Part shown: positions 1 to 8,804 of the stretch, in pieces | How the letters are laid out: every line of letters begins with the position of its first letter | Numbering within the stretch: the stretch's first letter is position 1 | Assembly: GCA_002432555.1 (NCBI GenBank) | Contig: DJFO01000421.1 | Span: forward strand, 1 to 8,804 | Direction: 5' to 3' | Source: Marinagarivorans sp. UBA5870 | GTDB lineage: Bacteria; Pseudomonadota; Gammaproteobacteria; Pseudomonadales; Cellvibrionaceae | Length of the DNA: 8,804 bases | Made by a program: the position numbers and the translations under genes | The notes under the pieces: generated by a model | Database searches by the model: none | Told to the model about the DNA's origin: nothing | Seen by the model: only the letters and a program-made list of their open reading frames with translations

Positions 1-587
1 TCGTGGGTGATCATGAACACCGTCAGGTCCAGGCTGTCGGCCAGGTCGCGGATCAGTTCGTCGAAGGCCGCCGCGCCGATTGGGTCGAGACCCGAGGTGG
101 GCTCGTCGAGGAAGAGCAGATCCGGCCGATGCAACACCGCGGCGGCAAGTGCCAAACGCTGCTTCTGTCCACCGCTCATGGTGCCCGCCAGCTGGCGCTG
201 GCGACCCGCCAAATCGTAAAGCTCCATCAGCTCCGCCACCCGCAGGTTTGCCGCCGCGCGCGGTAGTCCGTAAATGCGAGCCACGAAAGCCAGGTTTTCC
301 GCCACCGTCAAGTTGCCGTACAGGGAAAACTTCTGGGTCATATAACCAATGCGCCGCCGCACGGCTTCAGCCTGCTCGGGCAGCGGCTGTCCCAGCACCT
401 TGATTGAGCCGGCGGAGGGAGTCAGCAGGCCCGTCAACATGCGGATGGCGGTGGATTTGCCACTGCCGTTGGGGCCGAGAAAGCCGTAAATGCGCGCCCG
501 CGGAATTTGCAAGCTCACCTGGTTGACGGCCGTGAGTTTGCCGAAGCGGCGCGTCATGCCCAGGGTTTCGATCGCCCAGTCGCTCAC
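1..587 (-). CDS. ABC-2 type exporter ATP-binding protein, partial (C-terminus beyond window)
   Basis: Nucleotide-binding subunit that would power an ABC-2 exporter at the cytoplasmic face of the inner membrane. The 195 visible residues carry nearly the whole ATPase core in order: Walker A GPNGSGKST (38-46), Q-loop in MTQKFSLYGNL (Gln85), signature MSGGQKQR (137-144), Walker B LLFLDEP (157-163), D-loop SGLDP, and the switch His195 at the cut edge. The start is GTG at 587, overlapping the adaptor's stop as GTGA and preceded by GGAGG with a 7-base spacer. An ATG at 594 is in another frame. Position after a TetR gene and a HlyD-type adaptor matches the E. coli ybhGFSR layout, and the Q-loop region resembles YbhF-type ATPases. 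YbhF has two fused ATPase domains; whether this protein does cannot be seen. Membrane subunits should lie to the left. The substrate is unknown. Confidence 0.93.
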   Translation of the reverse strand, partial: MSDWAIETLGMTRRFGKLTAVNQVSLQIPRARIYGFLGPNGSGKSTAIRMLTGLLTPSAGSIKVLGQPLPEQAEAVRRRIGYMTQKFSLYGNLTVAENLAFVARIYGLPRAAANLRVAELMELYDLAGRQRQLAGTMSGGQKQRLALAAAVLHRPDLLFLDEPTSGLDPIGAAAFDELIRDLADSLDLTVFMITH

Positions 588-1543
588 CGGTCATCCTCCG
601 GCAGCAGTACCTGGGCAGTCAGTCCCGCCGGCAGGTCGACAGCATCGGCGCCGAGGGCGACCTCCGTCAGGTAAACCAACCGCGTGCGCTCCTTCTGATT
701 GAGTGCGTAAAAGGGCGTAAAAGCAGGCTCCGCGCTGATGGACCTGATGTGGCCGACCAGCGTGCGGTCGATCCCGTCCACCCGCACCTGCAACGCGTTG
801 CCCTCATGCAGTGCGGCGCGATACGTCTGCGGCAGGTAGATCCGCGCGTAGGGCGCGCGCTCCACCAGCAGCACCGCCAGCACCGCACCCGCCGCCACGC
901 GATCACCAGCGAGCCACGGCAGCGCGTCGACCCGACCGTCGCGGGTCGCGGTGACGGACAAATCCGCCAGATTTTTTTGCTCTAATTCGAGCAGAGCCGC
1001 GGCCGCGGCGACTTGCGCCTGGGCCTGGCGCACCTGTTCCACTCGAGTGCCCGCCACCAGCAGTTGCCATTGCTCGTGCGCGTCCTTCACCGCTGCCTGC
1101 GCCGCGTCCCGCTGGGCGAGCGCCTGGTCGAACTCCGCCTTGCCGGCTAATTTTTGCTGGTAGATGGCTCGCACCCGCTCCAATTGATTGGACGCCGCCA
1201 AGGCCCCGGCTTCCGCGCCTTCGAGGCGCGCCTGGGCCGCAGCAATCTGCTCTGCGCGGGCGCCGTTTTGCAGTTCGGCCAATTGCGCCGCCGCTCGTTC
1301 AGCTTCAGCGGCGGCCTGGGCGACCCGCGCGGCCTGGCGCCGGTCGTCGAGGCGCAAGAGCAGCTGTCCCGTGGTCACGTTCTGCCCCTCGGCCACCAGC
1401 ACCTCGGTTATCACTTCCGCCGCGGTCGCCGTGAGAGTAATGCGATCGCGCTCCAAGGTGCCGAGGGCAATCTCGGGGGCACCGCGACTGCAGCCAACCA
1501 AGGCCGCCACCAAACCCATCCATTTCCACCATGTTCCGCTCAT
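584..1543 (-). CDS. HlyD/YbhG-family periplasmic adaptor lipoprotein of ABC exporter
   Basis: Membrane fusion (adaptor) protein that would link the ABC-2 exporter to an outer-membrane channel. The 319 residues start with a hydrophobic segment ending in a lipobox LVGC (Cys18), so it is probably a lipoprotein. Then come a first lipoyl half-motif (about 40-66, with VAEGQNVTTGQLLLRLDD), a long Ala/Gln/Glu-rich helical hairpin (about 67-195), the second lipoyl half (about 196-225, DGRVDALPWLAGDRVAAG) and a beta-barrel region to the end. The start chosen is ATG 1543, which has AGGAG 6 bases upstream. An in-frame ATG at 1567 would overlap the tetR stop, lacks a comparable site, and would put charged residues before the signal peptide. 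The gene follows tetR by 16 bases and overlaps the ATPase start by 4, so the three are likely one transcript. The family is clear, the cargo is not. Confidence 0.9.
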   Translation of the reverse strand: MSGTWWKWMGLVAALVGCSRGAPEIALGTLERDRITLTATAAEVITEVLVAEGQNVTTGQLLLRLDDRRQAARVAQAAAEAERAAAQLAELQNGARAEQIAAAQARLEGAEAGALAASNQLERVRAIYQQKLAGKAEFDQALAQRDAAQAAVKDAHEQWQLLVAGTRVEQVRQAQAQVAAAAALLELEQKNLADLSVTATRDGRVDALPWLAGDRVAAGAVLAVLLVERAPYARIYLPQTYRAALHEGNALQVRVDGIDRTLVGHIRSISAEPAFTPFYALNQKERTRLVYLTEVALGADAVDLPAGLTAQVLLPEDDR

Positions 1544-1559
1544 ACTTTTCTCCTGTCGA

Positions 1560-2180
1560 TCACACATCGGGCACCAGCAACCCCTCGGTCAAAACGCGCA
1601 TATTGTGTTGCGCGAGTGCCGCGAGATAGGCGGGTGTCAATTGAATGCCCTGCAGTGCCAACATGGCCGGCGGGGCAAGAAACGGGAAAACCATCAGGCT
1701 GATAAAACTCAGGCGCGCCATGTCGGGCGCCGCGGCGAAACGCAAGCGCTGCGGGCGGACAAATACGGCTTCCTCGAGGCGACGCAGCAGCGGCGCTAAG
1801 ATTTTTTCGATGATTTGTCGCTGCGGACTCGGCTCATGTTCCATCATGACTCGCGCCACCAGGCGCGGCAGATCCGGGTTGTCGCCCATGATGCGGTAGT
1901 AGGTCTCGAGCAGGGCGGACACACTGTCGCCGCTCGGCTGCTCGAGCCGCGCAAACTGCTCGAATATCGGTTGTGCCGTCTCGCGCAGCATCGCCTCGAA
2001 CAATCCGGCCTTGTCGCGGAAGTAATAGCGAATCAGGGCGGAATTCACGCCCGCGTGCTGCGCGAGCAGGCGGATGGAAACCTGCTGATAAGCCTTGGCC
2101 ACAAACAGCCGGCGGGCGGCCTGGATCAAGCGCGCTCGCGCGTCAGTCGCCCCCTTGGGTCGTCCCGGCACCTGGGCCAT
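1560..2180 (-). CDS. TetR-family transcriptional regulator (CecR-like position)
   Basis: Likely ligand-responsive repressor of the exporter genes that follow it. The 206-residue length is typical of TetR proteins. The N-terminal DNA-binding domain spans about residues 12-60, with the helix-turn-helix at about 33-55 (VSIRLLAQHAGVNSALIRYYF) followed by the usual DKAGLFEAML helix. The rest is an all-helical ligand and dimer domain that cannot be assigned a ligand. Start ATG 2180 is preceded by only a weak purine-rich GGAAAAA. The gene is first in the tetR-adaptor-ATPase run, the same order as E. coli cecR-ybhG-ybhF, which suggests autoregulation and local control. Orthology to CecR is inferred from order and domain type only. 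Confidence 0.9.
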   Translation of the reverse strand: MAQVPGRPKGATDARARLIQAARRLFVAKAYQQVSIRLLAQHAGVNSALIRYYFRDKAGLFEAMLRETAQPIFEQFARLEQPSGDSVSALLETYYRIMGDNPDLPRLVARVMMEHEPSPQRQIIEKILAPLLRRLEEAVFVRPQRLRFAAAPDMARLSFISLMVFPFLAPPAMLALQGIQLTPAYLAALAQHNMRVLTEGLLVPDV

Positions 2181-2192
2181 AAGTTTTTCCGG

Positions 2193-2210
2193 TAATTCAT
2201 CAGGTGATTA
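2193..2210. promoter_or_regulatory. Candidate TetR operator upstream of tetR
   Basis: The core TCATCAGGTGA (2197-2207) is an 11-base imperfect palindrome with four of five arm pairs matching, flanked by TAAT on one side and TTA on the other. It sits 17 bases upstream of the tetR start in AT-rich DNA where a promoter for the operon would lie. TetR proteins commonly bind palindromes at their own promoters. No clear -35/-10 pair was identified, so this is a position-based inference. Confidence 0.35.
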
Positions 2211-2292
2211 AAATAAGCCGCGATCAGAGGTAAAGCCAGCGCGAAAATTCATCGGGATGCGGGAAATCGAGTAAAGATAGGCTGGGCAACGC

Positions 2293-2324
2293 GAGGCGCC
2301 GACGCCGCCTGGACGCGGCGCCTC
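2293..2324 (-). terminator. Hairpin after the DUF378 gene, possible terminator
   Basis: A perfect 9-base-pair GC-rich stem, GAGGCGCCG (2293-2301) with CGGCGCCTC (2316-2324), and a 14-base loop. It begins 5 bases past the TAA of the DUF378 gene. No strong run of T follows on the minus strand, so it may be a weak or Rho-assisted terminator or an mRNA-stabilising hairpin. It separates this gene from the exporter operon. Confidence 0.45.
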
Positions 2325-2328
2325 CGGA

Positions 2329-2619
2329 TTAGCGAACGCCGTTAGCTTTGCGGTGAGAAAGTTTGCTGCAGGTGTAGAGAGTCCAAAGCGCCGCCAGGCC
2401 GACCAAAGCATAAACCAGTCGGGAGAGCGACGTTTCCTCACCAAAGATGGCGGCGACCAAATCAAAGTCGAACGCCCCCACCAAACCCCAGTTGAGGGCG
2501 CCGATGATCACCAGCGCAAGGGCCAGCCAGTCGATAGCCGATAAGGAGCGCTTAGCGAGGCCGTTGGCGCGGCGGTCGGGGGTATAACGTCTTTCAGTGG
2601 AATGGGTTGTAGTTGCCAT
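2329..2619 (-). CDS. DUF378-family small inner-membrane protein
   Basis: A 96-residue membrane protein of unknown function matching the DUF378 (YuzA-like) family. After a charged 28-residue N-terminus come helix 1 (about 29-48), containing the family hallmark IIGALNWGLVGAFDFDLV, a short acidic loop (GEETS), and helix 2 (about 66-84, SRLVYALVGLAALWTLY). A basic tail ends the protein. The start ATG 2619 has AGGAG 6 bases upstream, a strong site. It is transcribed toward the exporter operon, but 148 bases and a GC-rich hairpin separate it from tetR, so it is probably its own unit. Family assignment is confident; the role is not known. Confidence 0.9.
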   Translation of the reverse strand: MATTTHSTERRYTPDRRANGLAKRSLSAIDWLALALVIIGALNWGLVGAFDFDLVAAIFGEETSLSRLVYALVGLAALWTLYTCSKLSHRKANGVR

Positions 2620-2787
2620 AGAGTTCTCCTATTTTGGGTCGGTTCGCGAGCCGAGCGTCGTCAGCCCGCTCGTCACAGGGACATAGCAACCCTTATGCCG
2701 AGCGAGAAAATCCGGGAGTCGAGCGCCAATAGCGGGAAACAGCCGCAATTTGGGCTGCAAGAATTACAGGAGTTTGTACGCGGCGAA

Positions 2788-2802
2788 GCCGGCAGCGCCG
2801 GC
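2788..2802. repeat. Small perfect hairpin GCCGGC-AGC-GCCGGC
   Basis: GCCGGC repeats around a 3-base loop; since GCCGGC is itself palindromic it can fold on either strand. It directly abuts the 19-base tandem repeat, and another GCCGGC (2880-2885) lies just past the other end of that array. It may be part of a transcription end or repeat structure; function is unknown. Confidence 0.4.
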
Positions 2803-2876
2803 TGAGCCTTGATATTGAGAGTGAGCCTTGATATTGAGAGTGAGCCTTGATATTGAGAGCGAGTCTTGACCGATAG
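2803..2876. repeat. 19-bp tandem repeat, three exact copies plus one degenerate copy
   Basis: The unit TGAGCCTTGATATTGAGAG occurs exactly at 2803-2821, 2822-2840 and 2841-2859, and is followed by a decayed copy starting CGAGTCTTGA (2860-2876). The array lies in the 284-base gap between the synthetase stop and the DUF378 start. It has no unique spacers, so it is not a CRISPR array. It is bracketed by GCCGGC motifs. It resembles a small minisatellite; binding or termination roles are untested. Confidence 0.9.
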
Positions 2877-2887
2877 GCCGCCGGCTC

Positions 2888-2903
2888 CGCGCGGAAACGC
2901 GCG
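2888..2903 (-). terminator. Hairpin directly after the A-T-TE gene, possible terminator
   Basis: A 6-base-pair stem CGCGCG/CGCGCG with a 4-base loop (GAAA on the plus strand, TTTC on the minus strand). It lies immediately beyond the TAA stop of the synthetase gene (2904-2906). No T-run follows on the minus strand, so intrinsic termination is not certain. Confidence 0.35.
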
Positions 2904-5480
2904 TTAAAGATAAAGACGCAACCGAGCCGCGAGGTCCTGCACTATGCCCTCGCGCAGCATGCCGAGGTGATCCCCGTTAACTTCGTGCACCCGAAGACTC
3001 GGCAAATATCGACCCCAGCCAAGATCCGCGCTGGGCGGTTCGAACTCGGTGCGTTCTTTTGCCTTGAACAGCAGGACCGGCTCGGTAAACGGGCGCGGCT
3101 GATAACCGCGCGAAGCGGTGGCTCGGGCGCTCGCCCGCTCGTCCACCACCGGTGCCAGGCCCGATTTCGCCAGCCACTTGTGTTTAATTTTTGCCATGAG
3201 CGCGCGATTGAAATAGGCGCCGCGCTCGCGCAGGATTTTTTTCATATGCAGCAGCATTTTTTGCGCGGGGGACAGACTGCGCCAAAAACCCGGAGCGTGG
3301 GTGTCCAACATCGCAACCAGGGCTACCTCTTCGCCCCGCTCACGCAGCAGCCGCGCGACTTCCAGCGCAATTATGCCGCCGAATGATTCGCCGGCCAGGT
3401 AATAAGGCCCCTTCGCTTGGAACGCGACTATGCTCTGCAGGTAACGCGCGGCTATTTTGTCCACGCTCAGCAGGTCCTGCACCGCCGCTGCGTCCGTGCC
3501 CTGCTGCATCAGGAGGACTTCTTCCGCGAGATACACGCCGCACACGGTTCGCTGGGTCTGCAGGGCCAATGCAAGGTCGCGGTACAGGAGCACTCCATAC
3601 AGACAAAATAAAGGCGCGTCCGTATTGCCGTGTTTCAAGACCACCACATCTCCGACGCCGGGCGCCGGCTTTTCCTGCTCCAGCAGTTCCGCCAATTCGC
3701 GCACCGTCGGATGGCTGAGCAAAAAACTGATGGGAATGAAGCGGGCGTATTTTTTGTCGACTGCCATCAGATAGCGGACGGCGGTCAGGGAGTCGCCGCC
3801 CAGCTCAAAAAAACTGTGGTCTATGCCGATGCTGTCAAGGGCAAAAAGGTCTTGCAGTATGGCCAACAAATCCATTTGCACCTGCGTGGTCGCCGCGGCG
3901 AAGCCGCCCGACAACAACAAGTTAGCGGCACTCGGCGCGGGCAGTTGGCTGCGGTCCAATTTACCATTGTGATTGAGGGGCAGTTTTCCCAGCCGGACAA
4001 ACAGCGGCGGAATCATATAGTCCGGCAGGTGCTGGCGCAGATGGTGGTGGATGTAGGCCGCGTCCACCGCCTCGTCCTCGTGCAATACCAGGTAGCCCAC
4101 CAGCGTCGGCTCCGTCTGATCCGCCAGTTTTTTGGCCACCACCACGCAGTCGCTGACGGCCGTCAAACTTTTTAATTGCTGCTCGATTTCGAGAAGCTCG
4201 ACGCGCATGCCGCGCACTTGCACTTGAAAATCCGCGCGACCGAGCAATTCAACATAACCCTCGGCGTCGAACCGACCAACATCGCCTATGGCGTAATACC
4301 GCTCGCCATCGATTTCGAGAAACTTTTCCGCGGTGAGCGTTGGCTGGTTCAGATAACCGGTTACGAGACCAGGGCCGGCGAAATACACCTGTCCGACGGC
4401 GCCTTGCGACACGGCTCGCCCCTCGGCGTCCAAGATTTTCAAGCGCACGTCGGCGAAGGGTGTGCCCACCTTGGTGCGGATGATGGTGTGCGAGCGCGAC
4501 ACGGGGTAGGTGCATCCCATGCAACTGATCTCGCTGCTGCCGTAGATCACGTAAACTTCCGCGTGGCGAAAAATCCGCTTGAGGCTCTCGAGGATTTCCG
4601 GCGGGACCATGTCGCCACCCGATGAGACGTGGCGCAAGTGATCAAAGGCCGCCAGCCCCGGCCCGTTATTTTCGATATAAGGCAGCAGCTGTTTCAGCAG
4701 GCTGGGCCCGAAATGGAAGACGGTGGAGCGCGCAACTGCAGCGCTCAGTTTGGCCATGTCCAGCACCTGTTCCCGCGGCAGCAAATTGACCTCCGCCCCC
4801 ACAGCGAGCGGTGCCAGTAATTCGAACAAACTAATACTGAAAGTAAACCGCGCGGCCGCAATAAATTTATCGGCGGAGCAAAAGCCAAAACGTTCCGCGG
4901 CGGTCTTGATGTAGTGCAGCAGGTTCGCGTGGGTTGCGACAACCCCTTTGGGTTTGCCGGTAGTGCCGGAGGTGAAAAAAATATGCGAGATATCGTCGAG
5001 CGCGAGGGCCACCGCCGGGTTTTCCACCGCGGTTGCACCAGTTGCTGTGGGTATGGTGAGATCGATAAAAGATTTTTGGAAAGACGGCGGCAGATAGGCG
5101 CAATCACCCAGCCCGAGAATCAACCGCGGCTGCACCTCGTCGAGAATGACGGCGATGCGGTTGATGGGAAAACCGGGATCGACCGGTACATAGACCGCGC
5201 CCAATTTATGGAGCGCGAGAATCGCCACCAGAATTTCCAGGGCGGGCGGCGCGCACACCACGACGCGTTCGCCTTTTTGCAAACCGCAGCGGCCGAGGTA
5301 GTGAGCGAGCTGGTTAGCGCGCACGTTTAATTCGCCGTAGGTCAGCGATTTATCCTGGCAGCGCGCCGCCGTTTTGTCACCCTGCTGCTGCGCCTGCCAT
5401 TCGATCAGGCGCACCAGAGGCACTGGGGCAAATGCGGGTGAAGCCGGCTGTTGCAATTGGGGAAGCGCCACAGATCTCAC
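2904..5480 (-). CDS. Stand-alone NRPS-like synthetase, domains A-T-TE, non-amino-acid adenylation domain
   Basis: An 858-residue single module that should activate an acid as its adenylate, load it on a phosphopantetheine arm and release it through a thioesterase. The A domain (about 24-515) shows A1 LTYGEL (46-51), A2 LGAVYVPVD (93-101), A3 FFTSGTTGKPKG (168-179), A7 GD (399-400), A8 GRADFQVQVRG (414-424) and A10 NGKLDR with Lys507. The carrier domain (about 533-602) has FFELGGDSL with Ser564. The thioesterase (about 615-858) has GESFGG with Ser699, Asp726 and His838, a complete triad. There is no condensation domain. In A4 the expected FDxS is FSIS, with Ser215 at the amine-binding Asp235 position of GrsA. 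A5 is YGSSE rather than YGPTE. Start GTG 5480 overlaps the HPPD stop as GTGA, with GAGG upstream. This architecture is known from enzymes such as ralfuranone and atromentin synthetases, which dimerise aryl-pyruvates. The substrate here is inferred only: homogentisate or an aryl-pyruvate. Confidence 0.93.
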   Translation of the reverse strand: MRSVALPQLQQPASPAFAPVPLVRLIEWQAQQQGDKTAARCQDKSLTYGELNVRANQLAHYLGRCGLQKGERVVVCAPPALEILVAILALHKLGAVYVPVDPGFPINRIAVILDEVQPRLILGLGDCAYLPPSFQKSFIDLTIPTATGATAVENPAVALALDDISHIFFTSGTTGKPKGVVATHANLLHYIKTAAERFGFCSADKFIAAARFTFSISLFELLAPLAVGAEVNLLPREQVLDMAKLSAAVARSTVFHFGPSLLKQLLPYIENNGPGLAAFDHLRHVSSGGDMVPPEILESLKRIFRHAEVYVIYGSSEISCMGCTYPVSRSHTIIRTKVGTPFADVRLKILDAEGRAVSQGAVGQVYFAGPGLVTGYLNQPTLTAEKFLEIDGERYYAIGDVGRFDAEGYVELLGRADFQVQVRGMRVELLEIEQQLKSLTAVSDCVVVAKKLADQTEPTLVGYLVLHEDEAVDAAYIHHHLRQHLPDYMIPPLFVRLGKLPLNHNGKLDRSQLPAPSAANLLLSGGFAAATTQVQMDLLAILQDLFALDSIGIDHSFFELGGDSLTAVRYLMAVDKKYARFIPISFLLSHPTVRELAELLEQEKPAPGVGDVVVLKHGNTDAPLFCLYGVLLYRDLALALQTQRTVCGVYLAEEVLLMQQGTDAAAVQDLLSVDKIAARYLQSIVAFQAKGPYYLAGESFGGIIALEVARLLRERGEEVALVAMLDTHAPGFWRSLSPAQKMLLHMKKILRERGAYFNRALMAKIKHKWLAKSGLAPVVDERASARATASRGYQPRPFTEPVLLFKAKERTEFEPPSADLGWGRYLPSLRVHEVNGDHLGMLREGIVQDLAARLRLYL

Positions 5481-6511
5481 ACCAAAACACCTCGGCGTTC
5501 TTGGTCAAGTTCAATCGACTCGAACAGGGCCTGGAAATTGCCTTCGCCGAAACCGGGGTTGCCTTTGCGCTGAATGAATTCAAAGAAAATCGGGCCTATG
5601 CTGTTTTTGGTGAAAATCTGCAGCAGGAACCCGCCCCCCTGCTCTTCACCACCGTCGATGAGAATTTTGCGCTCGCGCAGACGATCCACCACCTCTCCGT
5701 GACCCGGCAGGCGGGAATTCACTTTTTCGTAATAGGTATCGGGGGTGTGCTGAAAAGGCACGCCCTGGGTATCGAGACTCTCCACCGTCCGATAAATATC
5801 GCTGCTCAAGAGCGCTATGTGCTGAATGCCTTCACCATTGTATTCACGGATGAACTCGGCGATCTGCGATTTATCGTCTTTGGTTTCGTTGAGCGGAATG
5901 ATGACACGACCACAGGGACTCGCCACCACTTCACTGTAAAGACCGGTCTTTTTGCCCTCGATGTGGAACGAGCGGATGCGCCGGAATCCGAAGACCGTTT
6001 CATAAAAACGGCACATGCGCTCGACGCCGCCGCGGTTGAGGTTGTGCGTCAGGTGGTCGATTCGCTCCAGGCAGCTATCCGACGCGGGCGTGTAAGTGCG
6101 CGTGTAATTAAATTCGGCAAACAGCTTGCGCTCCGCTGCATCGTCCACCAGATAAATCAGCGATTGGCCGACGCCGTGCACGGCGGGAATATCGTAGTCT
6201 TTCAAGGTTGCGGGTGTTGCGCCCAGTTTAACGGCCAACTCGAAAGCCGCTTTGGAGTTGGCGACCTTGAAACCCATGGCGCTCGCGCCCCGATAATGCA
6301 CCGCCCGAAACATTTCAGCGTTGCCGCCGCTCGACGGGTTGGAAATAAAATGAATATGGCCTTGGTGGTGCAGCGTGATCGGGCGGCTTTGATGCCGGCC
6401 GACTTGCGCAAAGCCCATCTGGGCGAAGAGTTTGGTCAAGGACCGCGGCTGGCTGCCGGAAAATTCAAGAAAGGACAAATCCATGACCTGAACAAAATCC
6501 GCATTAACCAT
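5477..6511 (-). CDS. hppD: 4-hydroxyphenylpyruvate dioxygenase
   Basis: A non-haem iron dioxygenase that converts 4-hydroxyphenylpyruvate and O2 to homogentisate and CO2 in the cytoplasm (tyrosine breakdown; also the route to pyomelanin). The 344 residues include the iron ligands His153 (IDHLTHN), His231 (NGEGIQHIAL) and Glu311 (FFEFIQRKG). Substrate-pocket residues typical of HPPD are also present: Ser193, Asn208 in IPLNE, Gln216, Gln230 and Gln298. The gating C-terminal helix (GFGEGNFQALFESIE) is intact, so the enzyme looks functional and close to proteobacterial HPPDs. I chose ATG 6511, preceded by GAGG with an 8-base spacer; this gives a length close to the roughly 357 of the Pseudomonas enzyme. 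The in-frame ATG 6532 is possible, and the open frame back to 6679 has no HPPD character. The stop overlaps the synthetase start by 4 bases, so the two are likely cotranscribed and translationally coupled. Confidence 0.95.
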   Translation of the reverse strand: MVNADFVQVMDLSFLEFSGSQPRSLTKLFAQMGFAQVGRHQSRPITLHHQGHIHFISNPSSGGNAEMFRAVHYRGASAMGFKVANSKAAFELAVKLGATPATLKDYDIPAVHGVGQSLIYLVDDAAERKLFAEFNYTRTYTPASDSCLERIDHLTHNLNRGGVERMCRFYETVFGFRRIRSFHIEGKKTGLYSEVVASPCGRVIIPLNETKDDKSQIAEFIREYNGEGIQHIALLSSDIYRTVESLDTQGVPFQHTPDTYYEKVNSRLPGHGEVVDRLRERKILIDGGEEQGGGFLLQIFTKNSIGPIFFEFIQRKGNPGFGEGNFQALFESIELDQERRGVLV

Positions 6512-6766
6512 TGCCGTGACCTCACACTTCATTATTATCGGACCTGCGAAAGCTGCGCAGTTGGTATGGCATGCTGGATTGCAAAAAGGCAGCCACTTTT
6601 GGTACCCGCCCAAGTTTTTTTGGGGAATCGACAGACGAACGGCGTAAAATGCGGGTTCAATTGAGCCAAGGCACCGCATTTGGGGGAAAAAATCGTGGAG
6701 TCTGTTGACTACCTGTGGCGTGCCTATTGCGAAAAAGCCCCATGGCGGAGGACCTTCTCGCCGGCG

Positions 6767-6783
6767 TGTAAAAGCCTTCGACA
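6767..6783. promoter_or_regulatory. Candidate operator-like palindrome
   Basis: TGTAAAAGCCTTCGACA is a 17-base imperfect palindrome of form TGT-N2-AAG-C-CTT-N2-ACA, with six of eight arm pairs matching. It lies about 256 bases upstream of HPPD and 214 upstream of the reductase. It starts with TGTAAA, as TyrR-type boxes do, but the spacing and second half do not fit the TGTAAA-N6-TTTACA consensus, so no regulator is named. Confidence 0.25.
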
Positions 6784-6899
6784 GAAAGTGCAGGCAGGTC
6801 GAAGATGTCTTTCAGCACGCGCAGGAACAGCCCTTTAAGGCGGCCTTCCGCTATTGTTGTTTGTCCACTACCACCCGCAAAATGGCCTGCCTCGCCCCA

Positions 6900-6944
6900 C
6901 CGGTGTTAGCCGCATGGCCGGTGTTAGTCGCCCGACCGGTGTTA
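6900..6944. repeat. 18-bp tandem repeat, CCGGTGTTA three times
   Basis: CCGGTGTTA occurs at 6900, 6918 and 6936, an exact 18-base period. The intervening nine bases differ a little (GCCGCATGG against GTCGCCCGA), and the third copy is cut short. The array lies 53-97 bases upstream of the reductase start, where promoter or activator sites would be. It could be phased regulator sites or a minisatellite remnant. Confidence 0.8.
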
Positions 6945-6996
6945 AAAGTGTCGGCAGCCCTAAGAGCGGAGCCACTTCCCTAACCGAGAGCCTGTT

Positions 6997-7809
6997 ATGC
7001 AAACTTCTTATCTGATTTACGGCACTGCCTGGAAAAAGGAGCGCACTCGAGGGCTGGTACTCGATGCGTGGCGAGCGGGCTTCCGCGCGTTCGACACGGC
7101 CTGTCAGCCGAAGCACTATCGCGAAGATTTAGTGGGCGAGGCGCTTGCACATTTGAGCTCGGAGGGCGTCGAGCGCAGTTCCTTTTATTTGCAGACGAAG
7201 TTCACTCCCGTCAACGGCCAGGACGCGAGGGCCATTCCCTACGATGCGGCGGCTCCACTGGCGCTTCAGGTGGCGGAGTCTTTCCAGGTTTCTCTGCGGA
7301 ATCTGCGCACCGACTATCTCGACGCTTTGATTTTGCATTCGCCCCTCGACTCGCCGGACAAAACCTTGGCCGCCTGGGCGGCGATGGAAAAAATTCACGG
7401 CGCGGGAGGTGCGCGCCGGTTGGGCATCAGCAATTGTTATGACCTGCAACTGTTGCAGCGACTTTACGCCACCGCCGCCGTTAAACCCGCCGTGGTGCAA
7501 AACCGTTTTTACGCCGAGACGGGTTACGACCGGGAAATCCGCCGCTGGTGTCTCACCCACGACGTCCAATATCAGAGTTTCTGGACGCTGACGGCCAACC
7601 CGCATGTGCTCGATCACCGGGTGACTCGCGGTCTCGCCGCAGCGCTCCACCGCACCCCCGCGCAGATATTCTTCCGCTACCTCCACCAGCGCGGCTTGGT
7701 GCCCCTGACGGGTACCAGTGATCCGCGACATATGCAGGAGGATCTCGCAATTGTCGACTTCACCCTCGCCGAGGATGCCCTTCAGGAGATCGATCGGCTA
7801 TTTGAGTAG
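6997..7809 (+). CDS. Aldo/keto reductase family protein
   Basis: A probable NAD(P)H-dependent oxidoreductase of 270 residues with a TIM-barrel fold, acting on an unknown carbonyl substrate in the cytoplasm. The catalytic tetrad is visible: Asp33 in FDTA, Tyr41 in KHY, Lys68 in LQTKF and His114 in LILHSPL. Other family marks are LGISNCYD, the NRFY strand (QNRFYAETGY), and a C-terminal cofactor-binding loop GTSDPRHMQEDL. The loop between Lys68 and the next helix is fairly long. ATG 6997 has GAGAG 6 bases upstream, a moderate site. It is divergent from the HPPD/synthetase pair across 485 bases. It could act in the same pathway on a keto intermediate, but the sequence does not show this; a general detoxifying role fits equally well. 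Confidence 0.88.
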   Translation: MQTSYLIYGTAWKKERTRGLVLDAWRAGFRAFDTACQPKHYREDLVGEALAHLSSEGVERSSFYLQTKFTPVNGQDARAIPYDAAAPLALQVAESFQVSLRNLRTDYLDALILHSPLDSPDKTLAAWAAMEKIHGAGGARRLGISNCYDLQLLQRLYATAAVKPAVVQNRFYAETGYDREIRRWCLTHDVQYQSFWTLTANPHVLDHRVTRGLAAALHRTPAQIFFRYLHQRGLVPLTGTSDPRHMQEDLAIVDFTLAEDALQEIDRLFE

Positions 7810-8030
7810 TCGCCGCCCCGCCGAACCCGCGCGCGCCAAAGAGCGCGGCGCGAGCGCGTTAAGGAACGCCGCAAACGAGGCGAACCGTGTTGCAGGGCTT
7901 GGCGTTTCTGCGGGCGGTGGCGCACGGCGTTGTTTTTGCCGGGGTCGCAGAATAAACTCGCGCCCGGCATCGCCTGCCAGGCAGCCTCCCTTTCTCCGAC
8001 CGCGCCCGGTCTTTCACAGTCGAGGAACCA
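7810..8030. other. Intergenic region with GC-rich hairpin
   Basis: This 221-base gap lies between two plus-strand genes. A stem CGCGCC (7832-7837) / GGCGCG (7847-7852) with a 9-base loop follows the reductase stop, but no T-run comes after it. A weak promoter-like pair TTGTTT (7930) and AATAAA (7951) has a short 15-base spacer. The palindrome CTGCCAGGCAG (7974-7984) is perfect. None of these is strong enough to call separately. Confidence 0.4.
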
Positions 8031-8672
8031 ATGAATCTCAGCAACTCCGATGACAGTCGCTCTCTGGGCGATCAGCTTGAAGAGGCTATTCACAACCTGC
8101 CGCCCGACAATTTGAAATTGAGCGAAATTCTGGATCGTTTTGGCGCCCAGGGATTGCTGCTGATGAGTCTGCTGCTCACGCTCGTTTTCCTGATACCGGT
8201 CTCCATCCCGGGGGTCAGCACTGTATTCGGCGCGGCGATTTTGCTGGTGGGCGTCAGCCGCTTGTTCAACCGGCCCCTCTGGCTGCCGGAGCGGGTGCGC
8301 GAGCGCCCTCTGCCCACCGAGCGTCTACGCCCGGCCCTGCTGCGCGGTCTCAATTGGGTTCGCCGCCTGGAGAAAATCAGCCGCAGCCAGCGCCTGGCGA
8401 GTTTGGCACAGGGCCGCGTGGTCGATCTTTTTAACAACCTTGCTTTTATTCTCGCCGCCGTGTTGCTGATGATGCCCTTCGGTTTTATCCCCTTCAGCAA
8501 CACGCTGCCGGCGCTCGCCCTACTGTTTTACGCCATAGGTCTGTTGCAGCGCGACGGCGTCGCTATTCTCCTTGGGCACTTGGCCAACATCGCGACCCTC
8601 GCCTATTTTTCCGTGCTGATTGCCGGCGGCGGCCTGGCACTGCGGGAAATTTTTTCCCGCCTCAGCGGCTAG
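8031..8672 (+). CDS. ExoD-family membrane protein
   Basis: A 213-residue integral inner-membrane protein of the ExoD (exopolysaccharide synthesis, PF06055-type) family. The N-terminal soluble stretch ends in LKLSEILDRFGAQG, the usual ExoD entry motif. Hydrophobic segments lie at about 38-56, 62-78, 134-151, 157-173 and 178-204. The family signatures LIPVSIPGVSTVFGA (54-68) and PFGFIPFSNTLPALAL (149-164), then GLLQRDG (170-176), are clear. A basic loop (about 80-125) joins the two halves. Start ATG 8031 has GAGG 5 bases upstream. ExoD was named from rhizobial mutants with altered exopolysaccharide and alkali sensitivity; its biochemical role is unknown. No polysaccharide genes are nearby, so a specific role here is not supported. 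Confidence 0.92.
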   Translation: MNLSNSDDSRSLGDQLEEAIHNLPPDNLKLSEILDRFGAQGLLLMSLLLTLVFLIPVSIPGVSTVFGAAILLVGVSRLFNRPLWLPERVRERPLPTERLRPALLRGLNWVRRLEKISRSQRLASLAQGRVVDLFNNLAFILAAVLLMMPFGFIPFSNTLPALALLFYAIGLLQRDGVAILLGHLANIATLAYFSVLIAGGGLALREIFSRLSG

Positions 8673-8734
8673 CCCTGATTATTGCACCCCGGGCGCTACG
8701 GCATTTCGTCCGTCGGCGCGCCCCCCGCGACCTT

Positions 8735-8804
8735 CGCAGCCGACCTTTGCAGCCGACATTTGCAGCCGACCTTCGCAGTCGACCTTCGCAGTCGACCTTC
8801 GCAG
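8735..8804. repeat. 13-bp tandem repeat array running off the window
   Basis: The unit YGCAGYCGACMTT is repeated at 8735, 8748, 8761, 8774 and 8787, with a sixth copy cut at 8800-8804 and a partial copy before it (GCGACCTT, 8727-8734). The last two full copies are identical; the earlier ones differ by one to three bases. It begins 62 bases after the ExoD stop. There are no spacers, so it is not CRISPR. Its full length cannot be seen. Confidence 0.9.

Follow-up and report, generated by a model that had tools for sequence, protein, structure and literature searches.

The 8,804-nucleotide stretch of Marinagarivorans sp. UBA5870 DNA analysed here (contig DJFO01000421.1 of assembly GCA_002432555.1, positions 1 to 8,804 of the forward strand; hereafter the window) carries on its minus strand a gene for a 4-hydroxyphenylpyruvate dioxygenase (HPPD, 6511-5477) that overlaps, via a shared GTGA, a gene for a stand-alone adenylation-thiolation-thioesterase (A-T-TE) synthetase (5480-2904) of the type resembling nonribosomal peptide synthetases (NRPSs). 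That a full-length HPPD is joined in this way to an A-T-TE synthetase had been proposed in an earlier note on this DNA, and both the sequence and the domain models confirm it. The overlap consists of the last base of a valine codon of the HPPD gene followed by its TGA stop (5479-5477), and the GTG at 5480 is the start codon of the synthetase; the HPPD start is taken as the ATG at 6511, with a longer in-frame start at 6679. The features of the pair are as follows.

6520..6523, minus strand: GAGG, resembling a ribosome-binding site, 8 nucleotides before the HPPD ATG (read in the sequence)
5477..6511, minus strand: HPPD, 344 amino acids (TIGR01263; structure 1cjx; ten metal-site and pocket positions kept)
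5477..5480, minus strand: GTGA start/stop overlap of HPPD and synthetase (read in the sequence)
2904..5480, minus strand: stand-alone A-T-TE NRPS-like synthetase, 858 amino acids (Pfam domains; A domain in the SIFH clade, support 100/100)
3960..5402, minus strand: adenylation domain, pocket code SIFHVSICMK (Pfam; code by alignment)
3681..3869, minus strand: thiolation (PP-binding) domain, motif FFELGGDSL (Pfam; motif)
2931..3590, minus strand: thioesterase domain with GESFG (Ser699), Asp in MLDTHAP and His in NGDHLGML (Pfam; motifs)

Scanned from the longer start, the HPPD scores 347 bits against the NCBIfam equivalog model TIGR01263 (4HPPD), for which the cut-off is 277, and the solved structure with which it scores best, 1cjx, is an HPPD. 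The 2-His-1-Glu metal site and an HPPD-type pocket (Asn, Gln, Phe) are recognizable in an alignment of 36 HPPDs and in alignments to 1cjx and 2r5v, and all ten metal-site and pocket positions checked are kept, including the C-terminal Phe and the pocket Asn. At the level of the family, there is good evidence that the predicted reaction is the conversion of 4-hydroxyphenylpyruvate to homogentisate. A different possibility is that the acid loaded by the synthetase is a variant HPPD product such as 4-hydroxymandelate or quinolacetate: hydroxymandelate synthase (2r5v) is a relative, and in the four HPPDs checked from the cyanobacterial clusters described below (L001, L002, L003, L006) the IPLNE motif has Asn instead of its conserved Pro, which lies two residues ahead of the pocket Asn, at a position that we take to affect product outcome. 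This swap could alter the product of those four enzymes. The window HPPD, however, has Phe where 2r5v has Ile, keeps ten of the ten positions checked and clears the equivalog cut-off with a margin; because the C-terminal Phe and the pocket Asn are kept, the reading of it as a hydroxymandelate synthase was rejected, and we regard loading of a variant product as the least probable of the alternatives considered here.

In the synthetase, Pfam identifies AMP-binding, AMP-binding_C, PP-binding and Thioesterase domains within one protein, with no match to a condensation domain. The GGDS motif of the T domain and the GESFG motif of the TE domain are present, together with a candidate catalytic Asp and His in the latter, and the solved structures matched over most of the TE domain are EntF thioesterases. 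The nucleophile of the TE motif, Ser in the window, is Cys (GLCIG) in two relatives, L001 and L016 (loci and genomes other than the window are denoted by L and G numbers). The synthetase of L016 (9335-12650) spans two overlapping frames, one with the A part and the other with the T-TE part, which may be an assembly frameshift or a real split, and several relatives possess a truncated condensation remnant (e.g. L001) or extra modules.

The alignment-derived code of the A domain, SIFHVSICMK, has Ser at the position of GrsA Asp235, that is, at code position 1. Among A domains processed in the same manner, Asp occupies this position in all 15 chosen controls; in 136 stretches from 78 loci, the residue is Asp in 115, Ser in 15 (ten with the SIFH code and five with other codes) and another residue in 6, and 11 further non-SIFH domains encoded in loci of the family have Asp in ten cases and Met in one (in a second protein of L118). 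A protein search with the synthetase gave 4122 matches, many of which are probably general NRPSs; the 120 best matches listed, which include the window protein itself, all share the SI code start, with Ser at position 1, and end in ICMK (88), LSLK (26), FVMK (3), NCMK (2) or MCMK (1). Judging by these sequences, the SIFH family looks widespread in environmental data. The Asp that marks the A domains for α-amino acids is thus replaced by Ser, and an ordinary amino-acid A domain, which the earlier note had named as an outcome that would undo its proposal, appears unlikely from the pocket code.

The same residue bears on a second alternative, namely, that the A domain activates 4-hydroxyphenylpyruvate itself, as the atromentin and aspulvinone synthetases do, with HPPD competing for the keto acid or draining it. 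The A-T-TE layout is indeed shared with fungal and bacterial aryl-pyruvate synthetases, and Val at code position 1 marks the fungal α-keto-acid A domains, according to PMC10316625. The window A domain, like the rest of the SIFH family, has Ser in place of this Val, and its membership among the arylpyruvate synthetases was dropped for that reason; in addition, no transaminase is present among the seven window proteins scanned, and the SIFH domain is the first module in the multi-module lines. In the eight multi-module proteins seen (L003, L132, L134, L177-L181), the SIFH domain comes first in all eight, which fits an acid without an amine.

The second A domains of L003, L177, L178, L179 and L180 have the codes DILQLGVIWK, DILQLCMVWK and similar ones, and that of L134 is incomplete (DILQ-); we presume such codes to be glycine-like, which suggests for these relatives a product of the homogentisyl-glycine type, where homogentisate would probably be a non-amino starter joined to a glycine-like residue. 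L181 (second code DIEDVVTVTK) and L132 (three modules) differ from these relatives. In L117, the HPPD-linked synthetase has a neighbour (3554-8263) that combines a formyltransferase, a T domain and an A domain into which a luciferase-like monooxygenase is inserted.

A search of genomes for HPPD next to A-T-TE proteins, as suggested in the earlier note, shows that the pairing recurs. A scan of genome contigs with the window synthetase yielded 48 loci, in five of which tblastn with the window HPPD also gave hits: L016, from a Cellvibrionaceae metagenome-assembled genome (G001), in which the HPPD is 84% identical, lies on the same strand and ends 6 nucleotides before the next reading frame, and four cyanobacterial loci in which the HPPD gene is divergent to that of the synthetase. 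The SIFH code was found in seven of the 48 loci, and HPPD is present in five of these seven versus none of the 41 non-SIFH loci. At E 1e-120, the synthetase was detected in 5 of 390 genomes from the order to which G001 belongs, in 23 of 144 genomes from its family (titled Cellvibrionaceae) and, in a sample of the class, in 1 of 321 genomes, namely G001 itself. A search of one cyanobacterial order at E 1e-220 gave matches in 14 of 42 genomes, and 13 of these have the SIFH code; a match in G1226 with the code DPWAMCVIDK was excluded from the counts. A wider cyanobacterial sample produced matches in 52 of 386 genomes at E 1e-150, and 3 of the 30 loci read from these have the SIFH code (L064, from the L001 genome; L065, G683; and L066, G523), the rest being other NRPS domains. 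Plasmid searches returned 108 records for the synthetase, with distant NRPSs all below 60% identity among the best 20 of the 108, and 201 for HPPD, with HPPDs below 60% identity among the best 60 of the 201.

The surroundings of 42 SIFH-code loci, window included, were examined. HPPD is encoded beside the synthetase in 20 of them, nine in gammaproteobacteria (the window, L016, L096, L116, L117, L131, L132, L133 and L134) and eleven in cyanobacteria (L001, L002, L003, L006, L173, L174, L175, L176, L178, L179 and L180), so that the pair spans two phyla rather than being the peculiarity of a single strain, which the earlier note had allowed for. In L131, one gene separates the two; the contigs of L177 and L181 end before the expected place of HPPD, and that of L005 ends inside the synthetase. 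The HPPD gene may lie upstream on the same strand, downstream, or in divergent or convergent orientation, and this variation of order and orientation by lineage argues for a functional, not purely inherited, link. Of the 23 synthetase genomes in the family of G001, 7 have HPPD no more than 5 kb from the synthetase, compared to about 0.3% expected per genome (binomial 2e-13, relatedness uncorrected). The idea of a compact HPPD plus A-T-TE pathway is therefore well supported as far as the pairing is concerned; its substrate and product are still predictions.

Phylogenetic trees indicate that the pairing has more than one history on the HPPD side. In a tree of 36 selected HPPDs, a gammaproteobacterial clade of 13 rows (support 96/92) includes 12 from synthetase genomes, among them the window and G199, and the four cyanobacterial cluster HPPDs that were placed form a separate clade (100/98) to which the remaining HPPDs of those genomes do not belong; seven more HPPDs from cyanobacterial clusters, outside the tree, are 71-76% identical to the L001 copy. 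In a tree of 52 A domains (40 SIFH and 12 controls), all 40 SIFH domains, that of the window included, form a single clade (100/100) against the controls. Since the A domains form one clade and the neighbouring HPPDs two, a single lineage of synthetases is combined with two of HPPDs. Draining of 4-hydroxyphenylpyruvate by HPPD explains this pattern poorly; eight cyanobacterial loci with a prephenate-dehydrogenase-type gene, which would supply the keto acid, speak for the activation of 4-hydroxyphenylpyruvate, which on balance we consider quite unlikely. The earlier note had left the choice between the loading of homogentisate and competition for 4-hydroxyphenylpyruvate undecided; the two HPPD clades adjoining one synthetase clade, and a pocket that lacks the keto-acid Val, favour loading.

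Genome content is compatible with this association. HPPD scores over the cut-off in all 30 synthetase genomes tested, and the homogentisate dioxygenase HmgA in only one (G835). In the family of G001, HPPD was found in 83 and HmgA in 20 of the 144 genomes; HPPD is present in 23 of 23 synthetase genomes versus 60 of the 121 others (Fisher 7e-7, uncorrected for kinship), and HmgA in 1 of 23 versus 19 of 121. In L141 (2202-4921), HPPD is next to a small VOC protein and a fumarylacetoacetate (FAA) hydrolase, both confirmed by Pfam; in L139 and L150, N-terminal likeness shows the same arrangement, and the three genomes lack HmgA over the cut-off. In L142, an FAA-like gene was seen, and a small VOC gene is not among the listed genes. 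Such clusters may represent an HmgA-independent route of homogentisate degradation.

We consider it somewhat better than an even bet that HPPD makes homogentisate, that the A domain loads it, or a close HPPD product, and that the TE domain releases it onto an acceptor; the two window genes are best read as a small biosynthetic operon for this purpose. In the first step, HPPD would make homogentisate from 4-hydroxyphenylpyruvate. The A domain would then adenylate homogentisate, or a close relative of it made by HPPD, at the carboxylate and load it on the T domain, as the linkage, the pocket and the pathway supply suggest. Finally, by passing the homogentisyl group to a hydroxyl or another nucleophile, the TE domain would form an ester, a lactone or a depside-like dimer; the simplest product of the bare pair would be a homogentisate ester, dimer or lactone.

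Several observations weigh against this reading. Ser at position 1 by itself is not unique to the SIFH family, although the full SIFH code was, in the set of 136 stretches; moreover, we know of no characterised A domain with the SIFH code, so the code argues against an α-amino acid better than it picks homogentisate. G889 has an HPPD of the gammaproteobacterial cluster clade and no synthetase, and in the family of G001 there are at least 41 genomes with HPPD but with neither HmgA nor the synthetase. The absence of HmgA as proof of a biosynthetic role is weakened by the HPPD/small VOC/FAA hydrolase genes of some genomes, so that it does not demonstrate that homogentisate is left undegraded. Neither HPPD nor the half-size VOC protein described below is encoded nearby in seven of the 42 loci (L004, L005, L095, L118, L119, L120, L128), and the acid loaded in the 13 loci with the half-size protein may differ. 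These seven loci, all with the same ICMK ending as the HPPD-linked ones, and the shifted ending (NCMK, CCMK or CCLK) of the synthetases in polysaccharide loci could be taken to mean that the A domain loads some other, unrelated acid (aryl or acyl) and that the adjacency of HPPD reflects some other shared role, in redox, pigment or tyrosine balance. Three of the four partnerless gammaproteobacterial genomes (G832, G819 and G890), however, hold a cluster-clade HPPD elsewhere, with no VOC neighbour at the synthetase, and both the L004 and L005 genomes have an HPPD, of whichever clade, elsewhere; G786, whose synthetase has the ICMK code, does not have a cluster-clade HPPD. An unrelated acid seems to us improbable, if slightly less so than a variant HPPD product, and loading of homogentisate remains the preferred explanation.

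The wider gene sets differ between lineages. In cyanobacteria, a prephenate-dehydrogenase-type gene is close by in eight loci (L001, L002, L003, L006, L173, L179, L180, L094) and a DAHP synthase gene in four (L002, L003, L006, L179), with calls based on NCBIfam or Pfam for the L001 and L002 genes and on protein likeness in the other loci. Of the prephenate-dehydrogenase-type genes, those of L001 and L002 pass a chorismate mutase/prephenate dehydrogenase model, and Pfam found no chorismate mutase domain in that of L001. Together, such genes would feed 4-hydroxyphenylpyruvate and the first shikimate step. A family-2 glycosyltransferase gene follows the synthetase in L001, L002, L006, L016, L173, L174, L175, L179 and L180, and is close in L117 and L128.

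The half-size HPPD-like VOC protein, about 225 amino acids long, retains the DH, QH and PEYVERP-like elements of the catalytic half of HPPD and scores under the HPPD cut-off, at about 32-38 bits in twelve genomes and 25 in G863. It is encoded close to the synthetase in 13 of the 42 loci:

L094, 13332-14012: half-size HPPD-like VOC (2.3 kb off, in the same gene run)
L098, 10466-11176: half-size HPPD-like VOC (beside the synthetase)
L099, 7485-8189: half-size HPPD-like VOC (beside the synthetase)
L097, L121-L127, L129 and L130: half-size HPPD-like VOC (beside the synthetase)

Because the L094 and L099 proteins are 54% identical and the VOC label changes twice on the A-domain tree, the half-size VOC probably joined the SIFH synthetase family two times. 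The last four code positions follow the partner type in part: they are ICMK in 19 of the 20 HPPD-linked loci and LCMK in one (L133), NCMK, CCMK or CCLK in the 12 half-VOC synthetases of polysaccharide-type loci, LSLK in L094, and ICMK again in the seven partnerless loci. As the 12 half-VOC synthetases form one clade (98/98), about two independent changes underlie this covariation.

In those 12 gammaproteobacterial loci, the synthetase lies among exopolysaccharide-like genes, as judged by sequence likeness, and in 11 of them an O-acyltransferase gene follows it (MBOAT in eight and AT3 in three; in L121 one small gene lies in between); none was seen in L123. The loci with the combination are:

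L097-L099, L121, L122, L124-L127, L129 and L130: synthetase, half-size VOC and MBOAT or AT3

In L099, the MBOAT gene is followed by one for a protein of about 325 amino acids without a Pfam match. By likeness, the HPPD-linked L096 and the partnerless L118 are also in polysaccharide-type loci. Each of these 12 half-VOC loci also has an HPPD gene at a distance of 8-12 kb (by coordinate subtraction); as this HPPD is one of the general clade, according to the two of the 12 that were placed in the tree, it was left out of the count of pairings. A bolder reading would see here a cross-phylum pathway class in which an HPPD-family enzyme feeds homogentisate, or a derivative made by the half-size enzyme, to a dedicated A domain and, in exopolysaccharide loci, MBOAT or AT3 decorates the polysaccharide with the carrier-bound hydroquinone acid; we think this broader picture unlikely as a whole, if less so than the alternatives to homogentisate loading. 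If the polysaccharide is so decorated, the result would be a redox-active, pigment-forming or adhesive matrix.

Within the window, the pair is flanked on one side by genes of the DUF378, TetR and HlyD types and a reading frame judged ABC-ATPase-like by its motifs only, and on the other by an aldo/keto reductase gene and an ExoD-family gene. The ABC-ATPase-like frame, the HlyD-type adaptor (best NCBIfam match PRK03598, under the cut-off of that model) and the TetR regulator, at 3-2180, resemble a general efflux-like set, and nothing ties this set to the pair. Of the gene kinds found in the wider loci (shikimate supply, glycosyltransferase, polysaccharide and acyltransferase), only the ExoD-family neighbour occurs among the seven window proteins scanned. 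A promoter and terminator scan of the window gave no clear signal, with scores within about one standard deviation of shuffled sequences.

A-T-TE enzymes and HPPD are both already known; what is new, to our knowledge, is their recurrent coupling and the distinct A-domain lineage. The earlier note knew of no characterised bacterial pathway with this pairing, and no description of it came up in searches of an open-access library either, a scope outside which most subscription papers fall. The known roles of homogentisate are mainly those of an intermediate of catabolism, a precursor of pyomelanin and a building block of plastoquinone and tocopherol. A dedicated A-domain lineage for homogentisate or a near relative, if real, would give NRPS prediction a further building block, together with a pocket code that can be read; the recurrence in distantly related bacteria suggests a family of pathways to aromatic natural products that has yet to be described, and the branch in polysaccharide loci hints at phenolic acylation of the bacterial matrix.

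Among known systems, the closest in layout are the aryl-pyruvate A-T-TE synthetases (atromentin, polyporic acid and aspulvinone synthetases; bacterial RalA and EchA, these two compared in domain layout), with which the window shares the stand-alone domain order and, as predicted, an aromatic acid from the tyrosine/prephenate branch. The likeness to the ralfuranone, atromentin and aspulvinone enzymes drawn in the earlier note thus holds for the domain layout and fails at code position 1, which is Val in these synthetases and Ser in the window; furthermore, the window neighbour is HPPD, no transaminase is among the window proteins scanned, and several relatives of the window synthetase depart from the bare A-T-TE form by the condensation remnant or extra modules. 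Siderophore starter A domains of the DhbE/EntE type also use a non-amino aromatic acid as the first building block, a role matched by the SIFH module of the eight multi-module relatives, but in the window A, T and TE are in one protein, and the pocket code presumably differs from the dihydroxybenzoate code of that type. The HPPD of tyrosine catabolism has the family model (TIGR01263), metal ligands and pocket residues in common with the window HPPD; the latter, however, belongs to a clade with 12 of 13 rows from synthetase genomes in the 36-row selection, and HmgA is absent in 29 of 30 synthetase genomes. Finally, a parallel may be drawn with the D-alanine ligase and MBOAT systems (DltA, DltB): in the polysaccharide-type loci of the relatives, the A-T-TE enzyme also adjoins an MBOAT or AT3 acyltransferase (11 of 12), whereas the window has no acyltransferase gene among its scanned proteins, a fused TE domain, and Ser rather than Asp at code position 1.

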